From Olsenella uli (GTDB lineage Bacteria > Actinomycetota > Coriobacteriia > Coriobacteriales > Atopobiaceae), in assembly GCF_016900775.1 (NCBI RefSeq), contig NZ_JACJKN010000001.1, positions 248,001 through 312,000 on the forward strand: a stretch of DNA of 64,000 nt, in the 5' to 3' direction. A program made the translations under genes and the position numbers. Position 1 is the first letter of the stretch. Every line of letters starts with the position of its first letter. Under the pieces are notes generated by a model. The model was not told where the DNA came from. It saw nothing but the letters and a program-made list of their open reading frames with translations, and searched no databases. Below, piece by piece: positions 7,913 to 55,507 of this stretch.

Positions 7913-9007
7913 ATGAAGAAGCTCGACAAGAACCAGCTCACCCGCCGCTCGTTCCTCAAGGTCGCCGGCGCCGTCGGCGTCGTGGGGTCGGGACTCGTCC
8001 TCGCCGGCTGCGACGGCGGCGCCAAGGAGCCCGCCGCGGACGACTCCTCCGACGACGCCTCCGGGGAGCCGGCCGACAGCGAGTACGAGCCCGTCACCGT
8101 GCACGTTGCCTTCATGCCCAACCTGGGATCGGCCGCCACGCTCTTCTCGGCCATCGACCAGGGCTACTTCGACGAGGTCGGCATCACCGTCGAGACCGAG
8201 CAGTTCCAGGCCGGCCCCGCCGAGATCACGGCCATGCAGTCTGGTTCCGTGGACATCGCGCAGATCGGCCACGGCGCGCACTCCCTCTGCATCCAGGGCC
8301 AGGCCAAGATCTTCGCCTTCGACCAGCTCTCCCAGGCCGACTGCGTCGTCGCGAACAAGTCCCACGGCATCGAGACCGGCGCCGACCTCGCCGGCAAGAC
8401 GGTGGGCGTCGCCTCCGGCACCTCCTCGGAGATCATTCTCCAGTACGTGCTGAGGGACGCCGGCCTCACCACCGAAGACATCAACACCGTCGAGATGGAC
8501 GTCTCGGGCATGACGACGGCCCTCATCTCCGGCCAGATCGACGCCGCCGCCACCTGGTCGCCCAACACCGTCACCCTCGAGGAGCAGCTCGGCGACGACT
8601 ACCTCGTCCTCGGCACCAACACCGACTACTCCGACGAGGTCGCCTTCCCCGGCTCCTACGTCTGCCTGCCCGAGTACGCCGAGGAGAACCACGACGTCCT
8701 CGTCCGCTTTGGCGCCGCGCTCGACAAGGGCAAGGTCTACCGCAACGAGCACATCGACGACGTCGCCAAGCTCCTCGCCACCGAGCTCGGCGTCCCCGAG
8801 GACACGCTCCTGCAGTCCACGGGCGAGGGCGACTGGCAGGGCGCCGTCGACGCCATCGGCAAGACCGACGTCATCACCGGCTACTACGAGGCGCAGCAGA
8901 AGGTCTTCCTGGACGGCGGCCAGATCGAGGCCGAGGTGCCCGTCGAGGACTACGTCCTGGTCGACGTCATCACCGAGTCCGACGAGCTCTACGAGACCAT
9001 CAAGTAG
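7913..9007 (+). CDS. ABC transporter substrate-binding lipoprotein (NMT1/SsuA-like), Tat-exported
   Basis: 364 residues from ATG 7913, behind GGAAGGAAAGGAAACGCA. The N-terminus has a twin-arginine motif (TRRSFLK, residues 11-17), a hydrophobic stretch and lipobox LAGC (Cys35 or so), so the mature protein is a membrane-anchored lipoprotein exported folded. The body starts with VTVHVAFMPNLGSAATLFSAIDQGYFDEVGI, the usual opening of SsuA/NMT1-type binding proteins, with AEITAMQSGSVDIAQIG and AAATWSPN further on. It captures the ligand for the permease/ATPase pair upstream. Length and order fit a normal type II importer. Confidence 0.9.
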   Translation: MKKLDKNQLTRRSFLKVAGAVGVVGSGLVLAGCDGGAKEPAADDSSDDASGEPADSEYEPVTVHVAFMPNLGSAATLFSAIDQGYFDEVGITVETEQFQAGPAEITAMQSGSVDIAQIGHGAHSLCIQGQAKIFAFDQLSQADCVVANKSHGIETGADLAGKTVGVASGTSSEIILQYVLRDAGLTTEDINTVEMDVSGMTTALISGQIDAAATWSPNTVTLEEQLGDDYLVLGTNTDYSDEVAFPGSYVCLPEYAEENHDVLVRFGAALDKGKVYRNEHIDDVAKLLATELGVPEDTLLQSTGEGDWQGAVDAIGKTDVITGYYEAQQKVFLDGGQIEAEVPVEDYVLVDVITESDELYETIK

Positions 9008-13730: not shown

Positions 13731-13933
13731 CGTTGCGTTAATTGGGGTTGCGGCAGTCCGGGTCCCCCGCGCGTTGCGCCGATTGGGGTTGTGGCAATCG
13801 CTGGATCATGTCAACAGGGCGTTTCTCATCATGCGTTGCGGGAACGGGGGCTATGGCAGGCTGATTGCTGCCATAGCCCCCGTTCCCGCAACGCCGGAAG
13901 CGACGTGATTGCCACAACCCCAATTTGCGCAAC
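13731..13933. repeat. Cluster of ~26-bp repeats (GCGTTGCG ... GGGG..TGGCAG) with perfect 27-bp palindrome
   Basis: Four or five copies of one unit: 13731-13756, 13771-13797, 13833-13859 in the forward orientation, and 13868-13894 and 13908-13933 inverted. The inner pair forms a perfect 27-bp inverted repeat with an eight-base loop; the outer copies pair less well. The unit begins GCGTTGCG, has six to eight variable bases, then GGGGYTRTGGCA. The same unit recurs at 52482-52644. The 453-base gap between the SDR and pyruvate kinase genes consists mainly of this cluster and the next element; no gene is seen in it. Confidence 0.85.
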
Positions 13934-13965
13934 AAGCGAGAAGAACCTCGAGCCCCAAGCCCCAG

Positions 13966-47951: not shown

Positions 47952-48036
47952 CATCAGATCTGGCCGCGGATTTCTGGCACTTTCGGACCCCCCTTTGAGC
48001 CCGGAAAGTGCCATAATCCCGCGGCCAGATTTGATG
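47952..48036. repeat. Inverted repeat CATCARATCTGGCCGCGG, copy 1
   Basis: Arms 47952-47985 and 48003-48036, about 34 bp with a few mismatches around a short loop. The left end CATCAGATCTGGCCGCGG and right end CCGCGGCCAGATTTGATG recur at 50373-50453. It lies after the S10 peptidase gene in the 249-base gap before rlmKL; a terminator role is possible. Confidence 0.85.
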
Positions 48037-48118: not shown

Positions 48119-50338
48119 ATGGAGTTTGTGGCGACGTGCCCCAAGGGCTTCGAGCGCCTGCTGGCCGACGAGCTGATTGAGCTGGGGACCCCCCAGGTGC
48201 GGCCCCTGGCAGGACAGGTCTCGTTTGGCGGCGAGGTCAAGGACGCGTATCGGGCCTGCCTGTGGTCGCGGCTCGCCTCGCGCGTGCTGCTCGTGCTCGC
48301 GCGCGTGGGCGCGCGTGACGCCGACGAGCTCTACGAGGGCGTGTCCTCCGTCGCGTGGGAGGCCCAGCTCGCGCCCGGGGCCACCTTTGCGGTGGACGCC
48401 CACGGAACCAACGCCGCGCTGAGAAACACCCAGTTCATCGCGCTCCGGGCCAAGGACGCCATCGTCGACCGCGTGTTCTCCGCGACGGGTGCCCGCCCGC
48501 TGACCGACCCGGCGCGCCCGGACCTCACGGTCTCCGTCCGCCTGGGCGGCCAGCGGGCGACCATCTCCCTCGACCTGGCGGGCGAGCCCCTCTTCAGGCG
48601 CGGCTACGACGTGCGGACCGACGCGCGCGTGGCGCCCCTCCGCCCGGACTACGCCGCGGCGCTGCTCGCAGCGGGCGGGTGGGGCCGCCTCGTCCGTCGC
48701 GGGGCGCCGGCGCTCATCGCGCTCTGGGCGGGGCAGGGGAGCGTGCTCGTTGAGGCGGCGCAGGCGGCGCTCGACCGCGCGCCGGGCCTGCTGCGCGCCC
48801 GCTGGGGCTTTACGGGCTGGGCGGGGCATGACGCCGCCGCCTGGCGGGGCCTGCTCGACGAGGCGGACGCCCGCGCGGAGGCTGGCGAGAAGAACGCCTG
48901 CTCGCTCATGGTGTCGGACGCCCGCCCGGGCGCGGCCGCGGCGTGCCGCCAGGCCCTCCGCGCCGCCGGCCTTCCCGTCGAGCCCGCGTTCTGCTCGCCT
49001 GCCGACGCCGCGGGCGCGGGGGAGGCGCTCGTGACCTGCGACCTCTCGTGGGTGGCCGAGACGGCCCTCGCGACGGAGGCCGCGGCGCTCGCCGACCTCT
49101 CCACGCTCTCGGGGAGGCCCGTCGTGACGCTTTCGCGCGGCGCCGCGGTCGACGCGGCGCTCTCCCGCGAGCCCGCCTCCGTGACGGGGGTGATCGTCGG
49201 GCGGGACGCCGCGAGCATCCGCGTCTACGAGGCGCCGGGCGAGGCCGCGGCGCCGGTGACCGTCGAGGTTGCCGGCGAGCGCGTGCCCGTGCTCGTGAGC
49301 GCCTCGGAGCAGTTCGCGCGCCGCCTCGCGAAGGTCGCCCGGCTGCGCGCCCGCTGGGCGCGGCGCGAGGACGTGACGTGCTACCGCGTCTATGACGCCG
49401 ACCTGCCGGACTACGCCGTGGCGATCGAGCTCTACGAGGGCTCCGAGACCCCGGGCCGCTGGCTCCAGGTCTCCGAGTACGCCGCCCCGCGCGGCGTGGA
49501 CCCGGAGCTCGCCCATCGCCGCCTGCTCGACGTCCTCGCGATCGCGCCCCGCGCGCTCGGCGTGGCGCCCGCGGACGTGAGCGTGCGCGTGCGGACCCGC
49601 GCCCGCGGCGGCTCGCAGTACGCGGACGAGGCGCGCACCCCAGAGCGCCCGCGGCCCGGGCGCCCTTCTCGCCGGGCGGGGCGCGTGGAGCTGCCGGCGG
49701 GCGCGCACCTGGTGGACGAGGGCGGCCTCACCTTCGAGGTCAACTTTGACGCGCGCCACGACTGCGGCATCTTCCTGGACCATCGGGAGACCCGCGCGCG
49801 CATCCGCGAGATGATGAAGCAGGCCAAGGGCTCCAAGCGTTTCCTCAACCTCTTCGCCTACACGGGCACCGCCACGGTCTACGCCGCGGACGGCGGCGCT
49901 AAGCACACCACGACCGTGGACCTCTCGCGCCCCTCCCTGGACTGGGCGCGGCGCAACATGGCCCGCAACGGCTTCTCGGGGTCGGAGCACGAGTTCGTGC
50001 AGGCCGACGTGCTCGCGTGGGTGACGGAGCAGCGCCACACGCGCAACCGCTGGGACCTCATCTTCTGCGACGTGCCCACGTTCTCCAACTCCGCGCGCAT
50101 GCGGCGCGCGTCCTTTGACGTGCAGCGCGACCACGCGGAGCTGATCATCGGCGTGTCGCGCCTGCTCGTGCGCGGCGGGCGGGCGATCTTCTCGTGCAAC
50201 CTGCGCAGCTTCAAGCCGGACACGGAGAAGCTCGAGCGCGCGGGCGTGAGGCTCGCGGACATCACGGCCGAGACCATCCCGGAGGACTTCGCGCGCAACC
50301 GCAAGGTGCACCACGCCTATCTGGTGGAGCGGGCGTAG
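48119..50338 (+). CDS. rlmL: 23S rRNA methyltransferase RlmKL-like, first catalytic domain degenerate
   Basis: 739 residues. Fused enzyme: THUMP domain (about 1-165), RlmL-type m2G2445 methyltransferase (about 165-400) and RlmK-type m7G2069 methyltransferase (about 500-739). The RlmK half is well kept: LNLFAYTGTATVYAADGGA, TTTVDLSRPSLDWARRN, and CDVPTFSNSARM (usually DPPTFSNS). In the RlmL half the SAM loop DPMCGSGT is replaced by ALWAGQGSV and the catalytic NPPYGER is not found (VTCDLSWVAET instead). So only the RlmK activity is likely. Start after AAAGGTGACCCG. Confidence 0.85.
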   Translation: MEFVATCPKGFERLLADELIELGTPQVRPLAGQVSFGGEVKDAYRACLWSRLASRVLLVLARVGARDADELYEGVSSVAWEAQLAPGATFAVDAHGTNAALRNTQFIALRAKDAIVDRVFSATGARPLTDPARPDLTVSVRLGGQRATISLDLAGEPLFRRGYDVRTDARVAPLRPDYAAALLAAGGWGRLVRRGAPALIALWAGQGSVLVEAAQAALDRAPGLLRARWGFTGWAGHDAAAWRGLLDEADARAEAGEKNACSLMVSDARPGAAAACRQALRAAGLPVEPAFCSPADAAGAGEALVTCDLSWVAETALATEAAALADLSTLSGRPVVTLSRGAAVDAALSREPASVTGVIVGRDAASIRVYEAPGEAAAPVTVEVAGERVPVLVSASEQFARRLAKVARLRARWARREDVTCYRVYDADLPDYAVAIELYEGSETPGRWLQVSEYAAPRGVDPELAHRRLLDVLAIAPRALGVAPADVSVRVRTRARGGSQYADEARTPERPRPGRPSRRAGRVELPAGAHLVDEGGLTFEVNFDARHDCGIFLDHRETRARIREMMKQAKGSKRFLNLFAYTGTATVYAADGGAKHTTTVDLSRPSLDWARRNMARNGFSGSEHEFVQADVLAWVTEQRHTRNRWDLIFCDVPTFSNSARMRRASFDVQRDHAELIIGVSRLLVRGGRAIFSCNLRSFKPDTEKLERAGVRLADITAETIPEDFARNRKVHHAYLVERA

Positions 50339-50372: not shown

Positions 50373-50453
50373 CATCAAATCTGACTGCGGCATCTTGGCG
50401 CTCTCGACCCCTGGGGCCTTGAGGCAGCCAAGGTGCCGCAGCCAGATTTGATG
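50373..50453. repeat. Inverted repeat CATCARATCTG, copy 2
   Basis: Left CATCAAATCTGACTGCGGCA and right arm ending GCAGCCAGATTTGATG (50427-50453), with TTGGCG/GCCAA inside. Same ends as 47952-48036 but a different loop. The two copies flank rlmKL on both sides. The 308-base gap to the phosphoglucomutase gene also has a Arg/Ala-like GC-biased stretch (50460-50560) with nothing clear, and a candidate -10 TAGAAT at 50576-50581. Confidence 0.85.
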
Positions 50454-50646
50454 CGCCGCCCGGGCGAGAAGAGCCCGCGCCCCGCCGCTCCGTCCGCGCC
50501 CCCGCCGTCCGCTCCGTCCGCCGCCGCGCGGCGTCCGTCTGCGCGCGCGAGGCGCAGACGCGCCCCGCGCGCGAGTAGAATCAACCTGCACGTGTGGGTA
50601 AGGCGCGGGCACGCTCGCGCCCCGATTGAAAATGGGGGAACACGCT

Positions 50647-52368
50647 ATGGACGCTAGCATCGAGGCCACGGTCAAGGCCTGGCAGGACAACGTCACCGAT
50701 CCCGACCTTGCGGCCGAGCTCGCCGAGCTCGTCAAGGACGGCAACGAGGACAAGCTCTTCGACGCCTTCTATCGCGACCTCGCCTTTGGCACCGCCGGCC
50801 TGCGCGGCACGCTCGGCGTGGGCACCAACCGCATGAACGTCTACGTGGTCGCGCAGGCCACCCAGGGCGTCGCCGACTACCTGAACGCCCACTACGAGAA
50901 CCCCACGCTCGCGCTCGCGCGCGACTCGCGCAACAAGGGCGAGGACTTCCAGAAGGTCGCCGCCGGCGTGCTCGCCGCCAACGGCGTCCACGTCTACGTG
51001 TACCCGCGCATCGAGCCCGTCCCCACGCTGTCCTTCGCGGTGCGCCACCTCGGGACCTCCGCCGGCATCGTGCTCACGGCCTCCCACAACCCGGCGCCCT
51101 ACAACGGCTACAAGGTCTACAACGACAACGGCGGCCAGATCACGGACGAGGCCGCGGCGGAGATCTCGGCCAACATCGCCAAGGCCGACCCGTTCAACGT
51201 CAAGATCATGGACTTTGACGAGGGCATCGAGAAGGGCCTCATCGAGTGGACGCCCGAGGAGGTCCTCGACGCCTTCATCGAGAACATCAAGAAGGTCTCC
51301 GTGCCGGGCTTCAAGGCCTCCGACGACTACTCCGTGGTCTACACCCCGCTCAACGGCACCGGCATGGAGCTCGTGACGCGCATCCTCAAGGAGATCGGCG
51401 TCGAGAAGGTCTCCGTGGTGCCCGAGCAGGCGGAGCCGGACGGCAACTTCCCCACCTGCACCTACCCCAACCCCGAGTTCCGCGAGGCCCTCGAGCTCGC
51501 CCTCAAGCTCGCCGAGGAGGTCAAGCCCAACCTCGTCGTGGCCACCGACCCGGACGCCGACCGCATGGGCACCGCCATCCCGCACGACGGCGACTACGTG
51601 CTGCTCTCCGGCAACGAGATGGGCGTCCTGCTCATGGACTGGCTCGCCACGATGGCGCGCGACCGCGGCGAGGACGTGGGCCGCAAGGTGGCCGTCTCCA
51701 CGATCGTCTCCTCCTCGATGCCCGACGCGCTCGCGCGCGACTGGGGCTTTGAGATGAGGCGCGTGCTCACCGGCTTCAAGTACATCGGCGACCAGATCGA
51801 CCAGCTCAAGGACGAGGGCGAGGAGGACCGCTTCCTCATGGGCTTCGAGGAGTCCTACGGCTACCTCGTGGGCACGCACGCCCGCGACAAGGACGCCATC
51901 GTCGCCACGATGCTCTGCGTCGAGATGGCCAGCTACTACGCCGAGCGCGGCATGGACCTCTACGAGGCCATGGACGCCCTCTACCAGAAGTACGGCTACT
52001 ACCTCAACGGCACCGTCAACGCGTCCTTCCCGGGTGCGGCCGGCGCCGACAAGATGGCCGCCATCATGACCGGGCTGCGCGAGAACCCGCCCGCGGAGAT
52101 CGCCGGCTACAAGGTCACCGGCATGACCGACTACGCCACCGGCCCCGAGATGCCGCGCGTCTCGGGTCTCCAGAAGGAGGCGGCGCAGGTGCTGCCGTCG
52201 GCCAACGTCATCGAGTTCCGCCTCGAGGACGACAACAAGGTCATCTTCCGCCCGTCCGGCACCGAGCCCAAGGTGAAGGCGTACCTCTTCTCCAAGGGCG
52301 CCACGCGCGCCGAGTCCGAGGCCGTGCGCGCCAAGCTCGAGGCCGCGTCCAAGGAGATCCTGTCGTAG
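50647..52368 (+). CDS. pgm: Phosphoglucomutase (alpha-D-phosphohexomutase)
   Basis: 573 residues from ATG 50647. Interconverts glucose 1- and 6-phosphate. The phosphoserine loop VLTASHNPAPYNGYKVY (Ser in TASHNP), metal loop VATDPDADRMGTA, sugar loop GFEESYGYL and C-terminal phosphate loop RPSGTEPKVKAY are all intact, as in the PgcA-type bacterial enzyme. N-terminal GTAGLRG is the usual substrate-binding loop. Feeds glycogen or cell-wall sugar nucleotide synthesis. A long hairpin follows. Confidence 0.95.
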   Translation: MDASIEATVKAWQDNVTDPDLAAELAELVKDGNEDKLFDAFYRDLAFGTAGLRGTLGVGTNRMNVYVVAQATQGVADYLNAHYENPTLALARDSRNKGEDFQKVAAGVLAANGVHVYVYPRIEPVPTLSFAVRHLGTSAGIVLTASHNPAPYNGYKVYNDNGGQITDEAAAEISANIAKADPFNVKIMDFDEGIEKGLIEWTPEEVLDAFIENIKKVSVPGFKASDDYSVVYTPLNGTGMELVTRILKEIGVEKVSVVPEQAEPDGNFPTCTYPNPEFREALELALKLAEEVKPNLVVATDPDADRMGTAIPHDGDYVLLSGNEMGVLLMDWLATMARDRGEDVGRKVAVSTIVSSSMPDALARDWGFEMRRVLTGFKYIGDQIDQLKDEGEEDRFLMGFEESYGYLVGTHARDKDAIVATMLCVEMASYYAERGMDLYEAMDALYQKYGYYLNGTVNASFPGAAGADKMAAIMTGLRENPPAEIAGYKVTGMTDYATGPEMPRVSGLQKEAAQVLPSANVIEFRLEDDNKVIFRPSGTEPKVKAYLFSKGATRAESEAVRAKLEAASKEILS

Positions 52369-52380
52369 AGGACGCTCTCT

Positions 52381-52427
52381 GCAGGAGGGGAGGCCCCGCC
52401 GGCCCGTTGGTCGGCGGGGCCTCCTGC
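52381..52427 (+). terminator. Long hairpin after pgm
   Basis: GCAGGAGG and AGGCCCCGCCG on the left pair with CGGCGGGGCCTCCTGC on the right around a ten-base loop. 12 bases after the stop. Confidence 0.75.
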
Positions 52428-52481
52428 TGTCTGCCGTGTCCGGGCCCACGAGTTCTTCTCGGCGATTCCGGCCGCTCGCCT

Positions 52482-52644
52482 GCGTTGCGGAAATGGGGGT
52501 TATGGCAGCCTGACGCCTCCCGGTGTTGCCGAGTTTGGGGCTATGGCAGAAAGGGCAGTGCCACAACCCCCGATTCGTAAACGCGGGCGAGAAGAACCGC
52601 AGGTCGTTCTTCTCGCCCAGCGCCATAACCCCATATCTGACAAC
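52482..52644. repeat. Cluster of GCGTTGCG ... GGGG..TGGCAG repeats, second site
   Basis: Forward copies at 52482-52508 and 52523-52549, inverted copies at about 52557-52584 and 52620-52644. Same unit as 13731-13933, some 39 kb away. Between the inverted copies lie GGCGAGAAGAAC and GTTCTTCTCGCC (52586-52617), themselves an inverted pair. Lies in the 302-base gap between pgm and the truncated ATPase; no gene is seen. Confidence 0.85.
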
Positions 52645-52652
52645 GGCTCGAA

Positions 52653-52718
52653 GGCGGATTCCAGCGGCCATTGAACCACGCCCCTCTCGTCGTGGTGCAA
52701 TGGCCGCTGGAATCCGCC
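52653..52718. repeat. 66-bp hairpin element at the truncated end of the ECF ATPase
   Basis: Perfect 21-bp arms (52653-52673 and 52698-52718) beginning GGCGGATTCCAGCGG, with an inner CCACG/CGTGG stem. The last base of the right arm is followed directly by GGCAAGACG, the codons where homology to ECF ATPases resumes (GKTVIVIEHH). The frame runs through the element, so it also supplies the first 16 codons of the remaining ORF. Confidence 0.9.
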
Positions 52719-53882
52719 GGCAAGACGGTCATCGTCATAGAGCACCACACGGAATTCATCGCCGAGTACTGCACGACCGCCGCCCTCATGGCGAACGGGG
52801 CCATCTCCTGGAAGCTCCCCGCGCACGAGGCGCTGCGCCGCATCGACGACCTCGCCGCGAGCGACGTGCACCCGCCACAGATCGCCCTTGCCGCCCGCGA
52901 GCTCGTGCGCGTGGGCGCGCTTCCGGCGGACACGCCGCTTCCCACCGCCGTCGACGAGGGCGCCACCGCGCTCTGGGGCATCCCGTTCGTCGCGCGCACG
53001 CGCGAGCACGCCCCCGCATCAGCCGCGGAGCCGGCGGTCTCCTTCCGCGGGGTCGGCGTGAGCTATCGCAGCGTCAAGGGTGCGCCCCGCCAGGTGTTCC
53101 GCGACCTCAATCTGGACATCCGGCGCGGGGAGAAGGTCGCGCTCGTGGGCGCCAACGGCGCGGGCAAGTCAACCCTCATGAAGCTCATGTGCGGCCTCGT
53201 CAAGCCCCAGGCGGGCGAGGTCCTGCTCGAGGGCGCCCGCACGCGCGACCTTGGCCCGGACGAGCTCTCCGACAAGATCAGCCTCGTCTACCAGAACCCC
53301 GAGCAGATGTTCATCAAGGACTCGATACGCGCGGACGTGGAGTTTGCCATGCGGGCGCGCGGCGTCGCCGATGCCGGCGAGCGGGCGGCGGCCCTGCTCA
53401 GGCGCTTCCGCCTCACTGAGTTTGCCGACCGCGACGGCCGCCTGCTCTCGGGCGGCCAGATGCGCCGCGCGTCGCTTGCCGTGGGCATCGCGCTCGACCC
53501 GCCGATCCTGCTGCTCGACGAGCCGACGGCCAACCTCGACATCGGCACGCGCCAGGAGATCACCAGGCTCGTCTCCGACCTTCGCGGCGTCACGGACACC
53601 GTGGTCATCGCCACGCATGACATGCAGCTCGTCTGCCAGTTCGCCGAGCGCGTCATCGTGCTCACGGGAGGCGAGGTCATCGGCGACGCGGCGCCCGACG
53701 AGGTCTTCATGGACGAGGACGCGGTCGCCCGCTCGGGCATCTGCCCGCCGGAGATCTTCCAGATGGGCCGCGCCCTCGACTGCCGCGCCGCCTGCTACAC
53801 GCTCGACGAGTTTCTCGCCTGCTTCCCCGCATGGGAGGCCGCACAGGGCGAGAAGGACGCGAAGGAGGGAGGGCGCGCATGA
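52671..53882 (+). CDS. ECF transporter ATPase EcfA, N-terminally truncated
   Basis: 403 residues if read from TTG 52671; the true start is uncertain and no ribosome site is visible. Residues 17-130 are the tail of a first ABC domain, from the H-loop (GKTVIVIEHHTEFIAEYC) onward: its Walker A, Q-loop, signature and Walker B are gone. A complete second ABC domain follows with Walker A GANGAGKST, Q-loop YQNPEQMF, signature LSGGQMRRAS, Walker B ILLLDEP and THD. The usual family member is a ~570-residue fusion. It may have become non-functional, or work as a homodimer. Its end overlaps ecfT (ATGA), so the operon is intact downstream. Confidence 0.75.
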   Translation: MNHAPLVVVQWPLESAGKTVIVIEHHTEFIAEYCTTAALMANGAISWKLPAHEALRRIDDLAASDVHPPQIALAARELVRVGALPADTPLPTAVDEGATALWGIPFVARTREHAPASAAEPAVSFRGVGVSYRSVKGAPRQVFRDLNLDIRRGEKVALVGANGAGKSTLMKLMCGLVKPQAGEVLLEGARTRDLGPDELSDKISLVYQNPEQMFIKDSIRADVEFAMRARGVADAGERAAALLRRFRLTEFADRDGRLLSGGQMRRASLAVGIALDPPILLLDEPTANLDIGTRQEITRLVSDLRGVTDTVVIATHDMQLVCQFAERVIVLTGGEVIGDAAPDEVFMDEDAVARSGICPPEIFQMGRALDCRAACYTLDEFLACFPAWEAAQGEKDAKEGGRA

Positions 53883-54712
53883 TCGAGAAGATCTCCGAGA
53901 GCGTCCTGGACAAGGTCTCTATCGATTTTCTGCGCGACCAGGTGCTCAAGAACGCCTACGGCAACGACGACACGCCCATAGCGGCGCTCGACCCGCGCGT
54001 GCTCCTGCTGAGGTACCTCTTCTTCGGCGTCGTGCCGTGGTTTCTGAACGACGTCGTCGTGCTGCTCGGGCTCTTCGCCCTGACGGTGGTTATCACGCGC
54101 GTGGCCCGCGTGGCGCCGCTCGTGCTCTTCGTCTTTGCGCTCGGCGTCCTCTCGCAGACCGGCTACACGTTCGTCGTGTCGCTCTTCTTCGAGGGCAACA
54201 TGGACACGCTCCTCTCGCTGCTCGTGCTGACGCTCAAGGTGGCCACGTGCTCGCTCGCGAGCATCACGGTCTTCTCGGGGCTCGACCCGGACAGGCTCTC
54301 CAACGGCCTTCTGTGGTTCGGCGTGCCCGAGCGCCTGTCCTTCTCGATCGCGTTTGCGTATCGCGTGCTGCCGATCCTCATGGAGGAGCTGCAGAACATC
54401 CTGCTGTCGTATCGCCTGCGCGGGCGCGCCCCGGCGCACGACACCCTCGCGGGCAAGCTCCGCTGGGTCGTCTACCAGGTCAAAATCATCGTTCAGTCGT
54501 TCTATCCGCTCATGCTCAACACGGCCAAGCGCTCGCGCACCACCGTGGAGGCCCTCGAGCTCAAGGGGTACCGCTACGCGTCCACCAACCTCAAGGTGCT
54601 CAAGATCAAGCTCTCCTCGCTGCGCGCGGGCAGGCGCGAGGCCGCCTTCGTGGCGATCTGCGCCTCCTGGGTCGTCATGTGCTTCGTCATTTCAGGGATT
54701 GTGGGACTCTAG
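53879..54712 (+). CDS. ecfT: ECF transporter transmembrane protein EcfT
   Basis: 277 residues, ATG overlapping the ATPase stop. About five membrane spans and the two cytosolic coupling helices with the Ala-Arg-Gly-type motifs YRLRGRAP (about 190) and ALELKGYRY (about 235) that touch the ATPases. Joins ATPases to a vitamin- or metal-binding S-component. No S-component gene is seen; it may have been lost with the upstream deletion or lie elsewhere. Confidence 0.88.
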   Translation: MIEKISESVLDKVSIDFLRDQVLKNAYGNDDTPIAALDPRVLLLRYLFFGVVPWFLNDVVVLLGLFALTVVITRVARVAPLVLFVFALGVLSQTGYTFVVSLFFEGNMDTLLSLLVLTLKVATCSLASITVFSGLDPDRLSNGLLWFGVPERLSFSIAFAYRVLPILMEELQNILLSYRLRGRAPAHDTLAGKLRWVVYQVKIIVQSFYPLMLNTAKRSRTTVEALELKGYRYASTNLKVLKIKLSSLRAGRREAAFVAICASWVVMCFVISGIVGL

Positions 54713-55507
54713 ATGGACATCGACTTTCACACGCACGGCAAGCTGGCCAAGTACCCGGCCTTCTCGCCCGACTACACCGACTGGCCCTTCAGCGAGGCGA
54801 TAAGCGCGGGACTCGACGCGCTGTGCCTCACGGAGCACTTCAACACGCAGGGCTTTCACGACGTCTACGCCGACGTCGCCCGTCGCTTCGCCCGGATTGG
54901 GGATGCCTACGACGTGAACGGGCTGCTCGTCTTCCCGGGGATGGAGATCGACGTGGCCGAGGGCGGCCATACGCTCGCCCTCGGGCCCATGGAGGAGATC
55001 CTCGACCTCAACGCCTGGCTTGAGCCGCACAAGGCCAAGGGGCGCTTCCTGCCCTTTGACGAGCTGGCCGACGAGGTGCACCGTCGCGGCCTGCGCTTTG
55101 GCGCCGGGCATCCCTTCCGCGCGCCGGGCCATCTGCCGGAGCTCTCCGACGAGCAGCTCTCCAGGTTCGACTTCCTCGACCTCAACGGCAAGGACCTCGC
55201 GCGCGACCGCGAGCGCTCGGAGCGCCTCACGCGTGCGCTCGGCGAGCGCCTGGGCATCCCCGTGATCTCGGGCAGCGACACGCATCAGGCCTTCCAGTAC
55301 GGCTGCGTGGTCACCCGCATGGCGCGGCGCTGCACGACCTTCGACGACCTCTTCGCCCAGGTCGAGGCGGGGGAGTATGAGATCGTGGTCGCCGAGGACG
55401 CGGCGTTTCGCGTGAAGACGGCCGGCTACCTCAAGCGCGCCCTCAAGGAGATCGACCGCCTCGGCGGCGACTACGTGGCCACGATCCTCGCCGGCCAGGC
55501 GCTCTAG
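54713..55507 (+). CDS. PHP-domain metal-dependent hydrolase
   Basis: 264 residues, ATG immediately after the ecfT stop. DIDFHTHGKLAKYP (first HxH), CLTEHFN, FPGMEID, AGHPFR and ISGSDTHQ give the PHP phosphoesterase metal sites in order. Related to histidinol-phosphatase and DNA polymerase PHP domains, but a separate small clade. Substrate unknown; the company of EcfT and an RpiR-type regulator suggests phosphorylated metabolite turnover linked to the transported nutrient. Confidence 0.85.
   Translation: MDIDFHTHGKLAKYPAFSPDYTDWPFSEAISAGLDALCLTEHFNTQGFHDVYADVARRFARIGDAYDVNGLLVFPGMEIDVAEGGHTLALGPMEEILDLNAWLEPHKAKGRFLPFDELADEVHRRGLRFGAGHPFRAPGHLPELSDEQLSRFDFLDLNGKDLARDRERSERLTRALGERLGIPVISGSDTHQAFQYGCVVTRMARRCTTFDDLFAQVEAGEYEIVVAEDAAFRVKTAGYLKRALKEIDRLGGDYVATILAGQAL

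Follow-up and report, generated by a model that had tools for sequence, protein, structure and literature searches.

The locus described here lies in a 64,000-nucleotide stretch of the Olsenella uli genome (G000:C1:248001-312000), hereafter called the window; the genome assembly, G000, comprises 2.48 Mb in 66 contigs and is rated 99.99% complete. The gene order is pgm, a hairpin, an EcfA remnant, EcfT, a PHP-domain protein, and an RpiR/SIS regulator. The phosphoglucomutase gene pgm (50626-52368, + strand) has an intact frame with Pfam PGM_PMM domains and is followed by the pgm-ecf spacer (52369-52652, + strand), which holds an inverted repeat after pgm and, by eye, REP-like units. A near-perfect hairpin of 66 bp occupies 52653-52718 (no strand assigned), and the remnant of a double-ABC EcfA (52719-53882, + strand) begins at the first base beyond it, with the tail of domain 1, the linker, and a complete domain 2. 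This second ABC domain is recognized as a single stretch of PF00005 (144-287) where the EcfA protein of Thermophilibacter provencensis (G008) has two PF00005 stretches. The CbiQ-like transmembrane component EcfT (53879-54712, + strand; PF02361, E 7e-15) has an intact frame that aligns over 277 codons with five relatives. As the initial annotation had stated, the hairpin does not close the reading frame: from a TTG at 52671 it runs on to 53882 without a stop (403 amino acids), which in itself shows nothing about gene use.

Comparison with relatives indicates that the short protein is the derived form. A genus set of 31 genomes, G000 included, was searched, and all 31 gave some ABC match; besides G000, the best match exceeded 80% identity in five (G004, G008, G022, G023, and G029). 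The best matches in these five are at 86-91%, and over the remnant the five congeners are 85-91% identical; their open frames at the EcfA locus span 590-663 codons versus 413 in G000, and pgm lies upstream of the ecf genes in four of them (the 12 kb examined in G029 did not show it). In the wider genome_contigs collection, 216 loci encode EcfA relatives. Of the 80 best, in which four of the five congeners are represented once more, 78 continue upstream of the matching part with 150 or more open codons, and the other two, L072 and L125, are cut off by the end of their contig. The possibility that a short EcfA is a natural form was rejected because the longer frame is present in 5/5 congeners with the locus and in 78/80 database loci. 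The initial annotation had named the same short protein in relatives without the hairpin as the outcome that would refute its reading; such relatives encode the long protein, so the reading is not refuted by this test.

Alignment with T. provencensis, the kind of comparison proposed at the outset, places the deletion junction precisely. The two sequences align over 50601-52656 of the window and again from 52718, with 1776 bp of the T. provencensis sequence in between, so the spacer is kept up to the deletion and the missing DNA falls exactly at the hairpin. EcfA homology starts at 52719 with GGCAAGACG, after the same Tyr codon position in the five relatives read. The missing segment of about 1.78 kb comprises the remainder of the spacer, a gene at the S-component position, and roughly 190-200 EcfA codons, a figure that depends on the start chosen; in the T. 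provencensis translation, the missing EcfA part holds the P-loop, signature, and Walker B of domain 1, as read by eye. The S-position gene encodes a membrane protein of 278 amino acids (L042:4814-5650) that neither Pfam nor NCBIfam models recognized at E 0.001; its best PDB hit, at E 0.1, was not credible. A translocation of the missing half to another site was rejected because the lost segment was not found elsewhere in G000 among the 40 of 195 first-look candidates that were scored; these gave ten short matches only (26-134 bp, 69-96% identity), eight of which fall in the EcfA part. The deletion took most of the first ABC domain and the S-position membrane-protein gene, with its junction exactly at the hairpin. 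The removal of the first ABC domain and a probable S gene, which the initial annotation had attributed to a repeat-mediated event, is therefore real for most of the domain; the proposed cause was a palindrome of local origin, and the sequence of the hairpin points elsewhere.

The hairpin had been described as perfect, and it comes close: 27/28 arm positions are paired, with one mismatch and a loop of 10 nt. Folded as single-stranded DNA it reaches -36.3 kcal/mol against a shuffle mean of -10.7, with 0/200 shuffles as good. A search of the G000 genome found its right part (52668-52718, + strand) to be the last 51 bp of the right end of an IS30-family insertion sequence (IS) on contig C24, identical at 51/51 nt (E 1.3e-20), and chance is excluded by this degree of identity. 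The left arm (52653-52673, + strand) matches the right-tip terminal inverted repeat of the same element, GGCGGATTCCAGCGGCCATTG when read inwards, at 21/21 nt versus 17/21 for the left tip, GGCGGAGTCAGGCGACCATTG; the exact shared prefix is 21 nt for the right tip and 6 nt for the left, and assignment of the arm to the left end was rejected on the count of matches. With a left arm of the right-tip type and a right part that is a right end, the hairpin consists of two right ends with their tips facing outward, which overlap in CCATTG. It is not an intact IS, as its 66 bp hold two right ends only, with no left end and no transposase gene. The right part includes a native hairpin of the IS right end, with 12 of 13 bp paired, that folds by itself at -12 kcal/mol (z -3.0).

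The full copy of the element in G000 measures 1293 bp (G000:C24:136644-137936) and is the source of the right-end match. Its terminal inverted repeats, with 17/21 bp alike between the left and right tips, lie in the length range of about 20-30 bp set for such elements. The last part of the transposase matches NF033563 (IS30 family) at 169.2 bits, above the cut-off of 80; an rve domain was also found among the pieces, and HTH_38 in the first part. The C24 copy carries an IS30-type transposase, though with an interrupted reading frame, and because the gene is spread over separate ORFs the activity of this surviving copy today is doubtful. The element has a relative in G016 at 96% and another, internally deleted, in G029 at 96-98%, and G003 has right tips with one mismatch near contig edges. 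Target duplications in the IS30 family are 2-3 bp. The G016 copy has an apparent 3-bp ATC repeat on both sides and was used to define the IS tips, whereas none was seen at the C24 or G029 copy. Both tips of the hairpin coincide with the boundary set by the G016 copy (tips at GGC), and each adjoins chromosomal DNA. A target duplication was also sought at the hairpin and rejected, as the flanking trinucleotides, GAA and GGC, differ.

The assignment of the hairpin to an IS bears directly on the first proposal for this locus, namely that the window's own repeated, REP-like palindrome caused the deletion with no transposon involved. The left flank does look like a REP-like array by eye and shares some similarity with the sequence beside the G029 IS copy. 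However, the hairpin is IS sequence throughout, with the identity to the IS end complete over all 51 positions. At E <=1e-3, a comparison of the whole window with the IS gave only the hairpin and one 26-bp match at 7963-7988. Nine other window palindromes, hand-picked from the 25 shown of 48 found, had a best match to the IS of 19 nt (E 0.009). The hairpin was accordingly rejected as a REP-like repeat, and we regard a deletion caused by such a repeat as hardly credible. The broader statement that palindromes reshape genes here is likewise not supported, since the hairpin is IS sequence and the other palindromes tested match the IS no better than stated above.

Several observations on the repeats themselves were made along the way. 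REP-like units with the core CGTTGCGG..GGGGTTATGGCA are intergenic and occur at 13768-13938 and 52470-52650 of the window and at L043:9990-10224; a loose version of the core has three matches in the window. The G029 copy of the IS (L043:10225-11303) lacks about 200 bp inside and lies, in another species, just downstream of rpiR of the same operon. On visual inspection, a REP-like unit is no more than about 15 bp away from the IS tips both in the window and in G029, which may reflect a target preference. Separately, the palindromes at 47952-48036 and 50373-50453 share an 18-nt stretch (94%) and flank the gene at 48119-50338, which appears methyltransferase-like by eye.

Taken with the comparison to T. 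provencensis, the identity of the hairpin provides a coherent explanation for the locus. The hairpin is made of IS right ends, its tips sit at the chromosomal junctions, and 1776 bp of the T. provencensis sequence are missing between them; on these grounds it is very probably the scar of an IS30-mediated deletion. Whether the scar could instead have arisen in the assembly or the library was also considered. The S gene might really lie between two IS copies that were collapsed at the hairpin, and the hairpin does come close to the product expected of a chimeric fold-back read. This is very improbable. The lost segment is on no other contig of a nearly complete assembly in the scored candidates (40 of 195), and the full IS copy on C24 was assembled through. 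A whole-IS search of G000, with 40 of 261 first-look candidates scored, found a full copy only on C24; going by locus lengths, 1.5 kb or more separate the other IS matches listed from the ends of their contigs. A search of G000 with the tip pattern returned four tips, two at the scar and two at the C24 copy, and no further one.

How an IS30-family element could leave such a scar is informed by work on the Escherichia coli element. In the part of PMC9333248 that was available, IS30 is described as producing deletions and inversions by intramolecular transposition; with an active IR-IR junction, the deletions start at the edge of the inverted repeat, and without one, the deletions seen were not transpositional, their ends lying away from the repeats. 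When IS30 targets its own ends, the resulting junctions are exclusively of the left-right type according to the same portion of that paper, which also gives a target duplication of 2 bp for E. coli IS30. Deletions beside IS copies without target duplications were frequent in an experimental evolution study, as far as the accessible text of PMC11708052 describes them.

For the manner in which two right ends came face to face, we infer a collapse of two inverted copies at a 6-bp repeat as the favored reading. One IS would have inserted into ecfA at TAC/GGC, oriented so that its right tip faced the 3′ portion of the gene. An IS30-type inversion (intramolecular transposition) or a second insertion would then have set an inverted copy beside pgm. 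The direct repeat CCATTG(A/C)ACCACG, 12/13 alike, is found near both outer tips, and strand slippage between its copies could have deleted both inverted copies and everything between them; such slippage would yield exactly the observed 66 bp. We give this exact pathway about an even chance. No strain with the intermediate arrangement of two inverted copies was found. A search of 140 genomes of the family, one for each species, met the right-right form a single time; the pathway therefore depends on one instance, which does not decide between it and its main rival. In that rival, a nascent strand would have snapped back on the IS right end, recopied the tip, and switched to the pgm spacer at GGCG, with the DNA between deleted. 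A single IS copy suffices for such an event, and the self-folding of the right end noted above speaks for it. In addition, the T. provencensis spacer reads CTCAAGGCGCC where the window reads CTCGAA/GGCGG, which would offer a 4-bp microhomology if the ancestor was like T. provencensis; this GGCG match at the left tip is expected under fold-back and a coincidence under slippage. On the other hand, the strand switch must hit the IS tip exactly, whereas transposition needs no such coincidence, and for fold-back too there is one case only. We consider it unlikely.

The occurrence of a single right-right form likewise bears on whether a 66-bp right-right mini-element was already mobile and inserted here, with the deletion a separate event. 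Both ends of the hairpin are exact IS tips on which a transposase could act in trans, as might happen with a MITE. However, the 31 genus genomes had no second right-right copy, nor did one turn up when 140 genomes of the family, these 31 among them, were searched with one tip mismatch allowed. There is no target duplication at the hairpin, and the deletion coincides exactly with the element. A MITE family, which calls for several copies with target duplications, was rejected, and prior mobility of this one copy is decidedly unlikely. A more general idea, which we put forward as a rather improbable one, is that the native right-end hairpin provides this IS30 group with a self-erasing route in which inverted copies or fold-back collapse to a tip-exact 66-bp palindrome, deleting neighboring genes. 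Were this true, unexplained junctions in Atopobiaceae at which a gene ends at a hairpin would often be footprints of a vanished IS that go unrecognized in annotation.

The deletion has consequences for the genes that remain. Of the two ATPase domains, T component, and S component that make up a functional ECF system, one ABC domain and T are left. With an ATPase domain, the partner gene, and the upstream region lost, the remnant operon is probably non-functional as a transporter, unless another G000 EcfA helps in trans. For the EcfA remnant, dN/dS is 0.117-0.170 in pairs with G000 versus 0.086-0.135 in pairs without it, ranges that overlap; for ecfT, the values are somewhat higher in the five pairs with G000 (0.118-0.137) than in the ten pairs without it (0.064-0.109). 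Changes unique to G000 are few, with 2 replacement and 2 silent in ecfT and 2 replacement and 8 silent in the EcfA remnant. These dN/dS values and unique changes were compared without a significance test (the pgm unique-change count excludes G029 and G023), and at most they hint that selection on the remnant has relaxed. The still-open frames and low dN/dS agree with a loss that is recent. In the region 52300-54750, a scan detected no promoter, with 0.3 expected by chance, and listed four terminator-like sites where 1.1 were expected, each of them within ecfT. An inverted repeat does follow pgm in the sequence but is absent from that list, so a pgm terminator at that position is not supported by the scan.

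The full copy on C24 has also left an interrupted gene. At this site (L003:6500-7937, G000:C24:136499-137936), its left tip adjoins a LuxR-type gene that is 330 codons long in T. provencensis and 95% identical in G000 up to the last base before the IS, at about codon 186. The T. provencensis sequence past the cut, about 144 last codons, had no match in G000 in a search with 40 of 50 candidates scored and no positive control. In G015, the same gene is uninterrupted. Apart from one 18-nt match, the G015 sequence downstream of it corresponds to the right side of C24 only from 399 bases past the IS onward, and the intervening 585 bp of G015 are not matched in C24. Other spacer DNA, about 400 bp long and rich in palindromes, lies beside the IS at C24, so this site is not a clean one-step adjacent deletion. 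At both sites of the element found in G000, a gene is broken off at an IS tip, with its remainder missing.

These findings signify that a hairpin at the edge of a gene can be the sole remaining trace of an insertion sequence. With a hairpin as the only trace, IS-driven gene loss will be under-counted if only full or annotated copies are considered. For the organism, the outcome was that it lost a dedicated ECF uptake system still present in several close relatives. ECF transporters with a dedicated A-A′-T module are known, and the locus in relatives resembles them, as the double-ABC EcfA adjoins EcfT and a membrane-protein gene comes before it; the window differs in lacking most of one ABC domain and the putative S component. 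Among the papers listed by a literature search on IS30 remnants and palindromes, none has IS30 in its text. Among mechanistic precedents, IS-adjacent deletions in experimental evolution share with the window an IS insertion followed by neighboring loss without target duplication, and differ in that an IS copy is found at the deletion there whereas 66 bp are left here, going by the text of PMC11708052 at hand. The closest counterpart is the set of IS30-mediated deletions covered in the available part of PMC9333248. Like those, the scar in the window involves an IS30-family transposase and a deletion that extends from the inverted-repeat tip, with no target duplication at the scar. Unlike those, it has no full IS copy and instead two outward right ends, where the junctions made by IS30 itself are left-right; the 2-bp target duplication of E. 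coli IS30 in that portion of PMC9333248 also contrasts with the 3 bp at the G016 copy. IS30-mediated deletion is an ordinary, known process, and the scar in the window is a new example of it.
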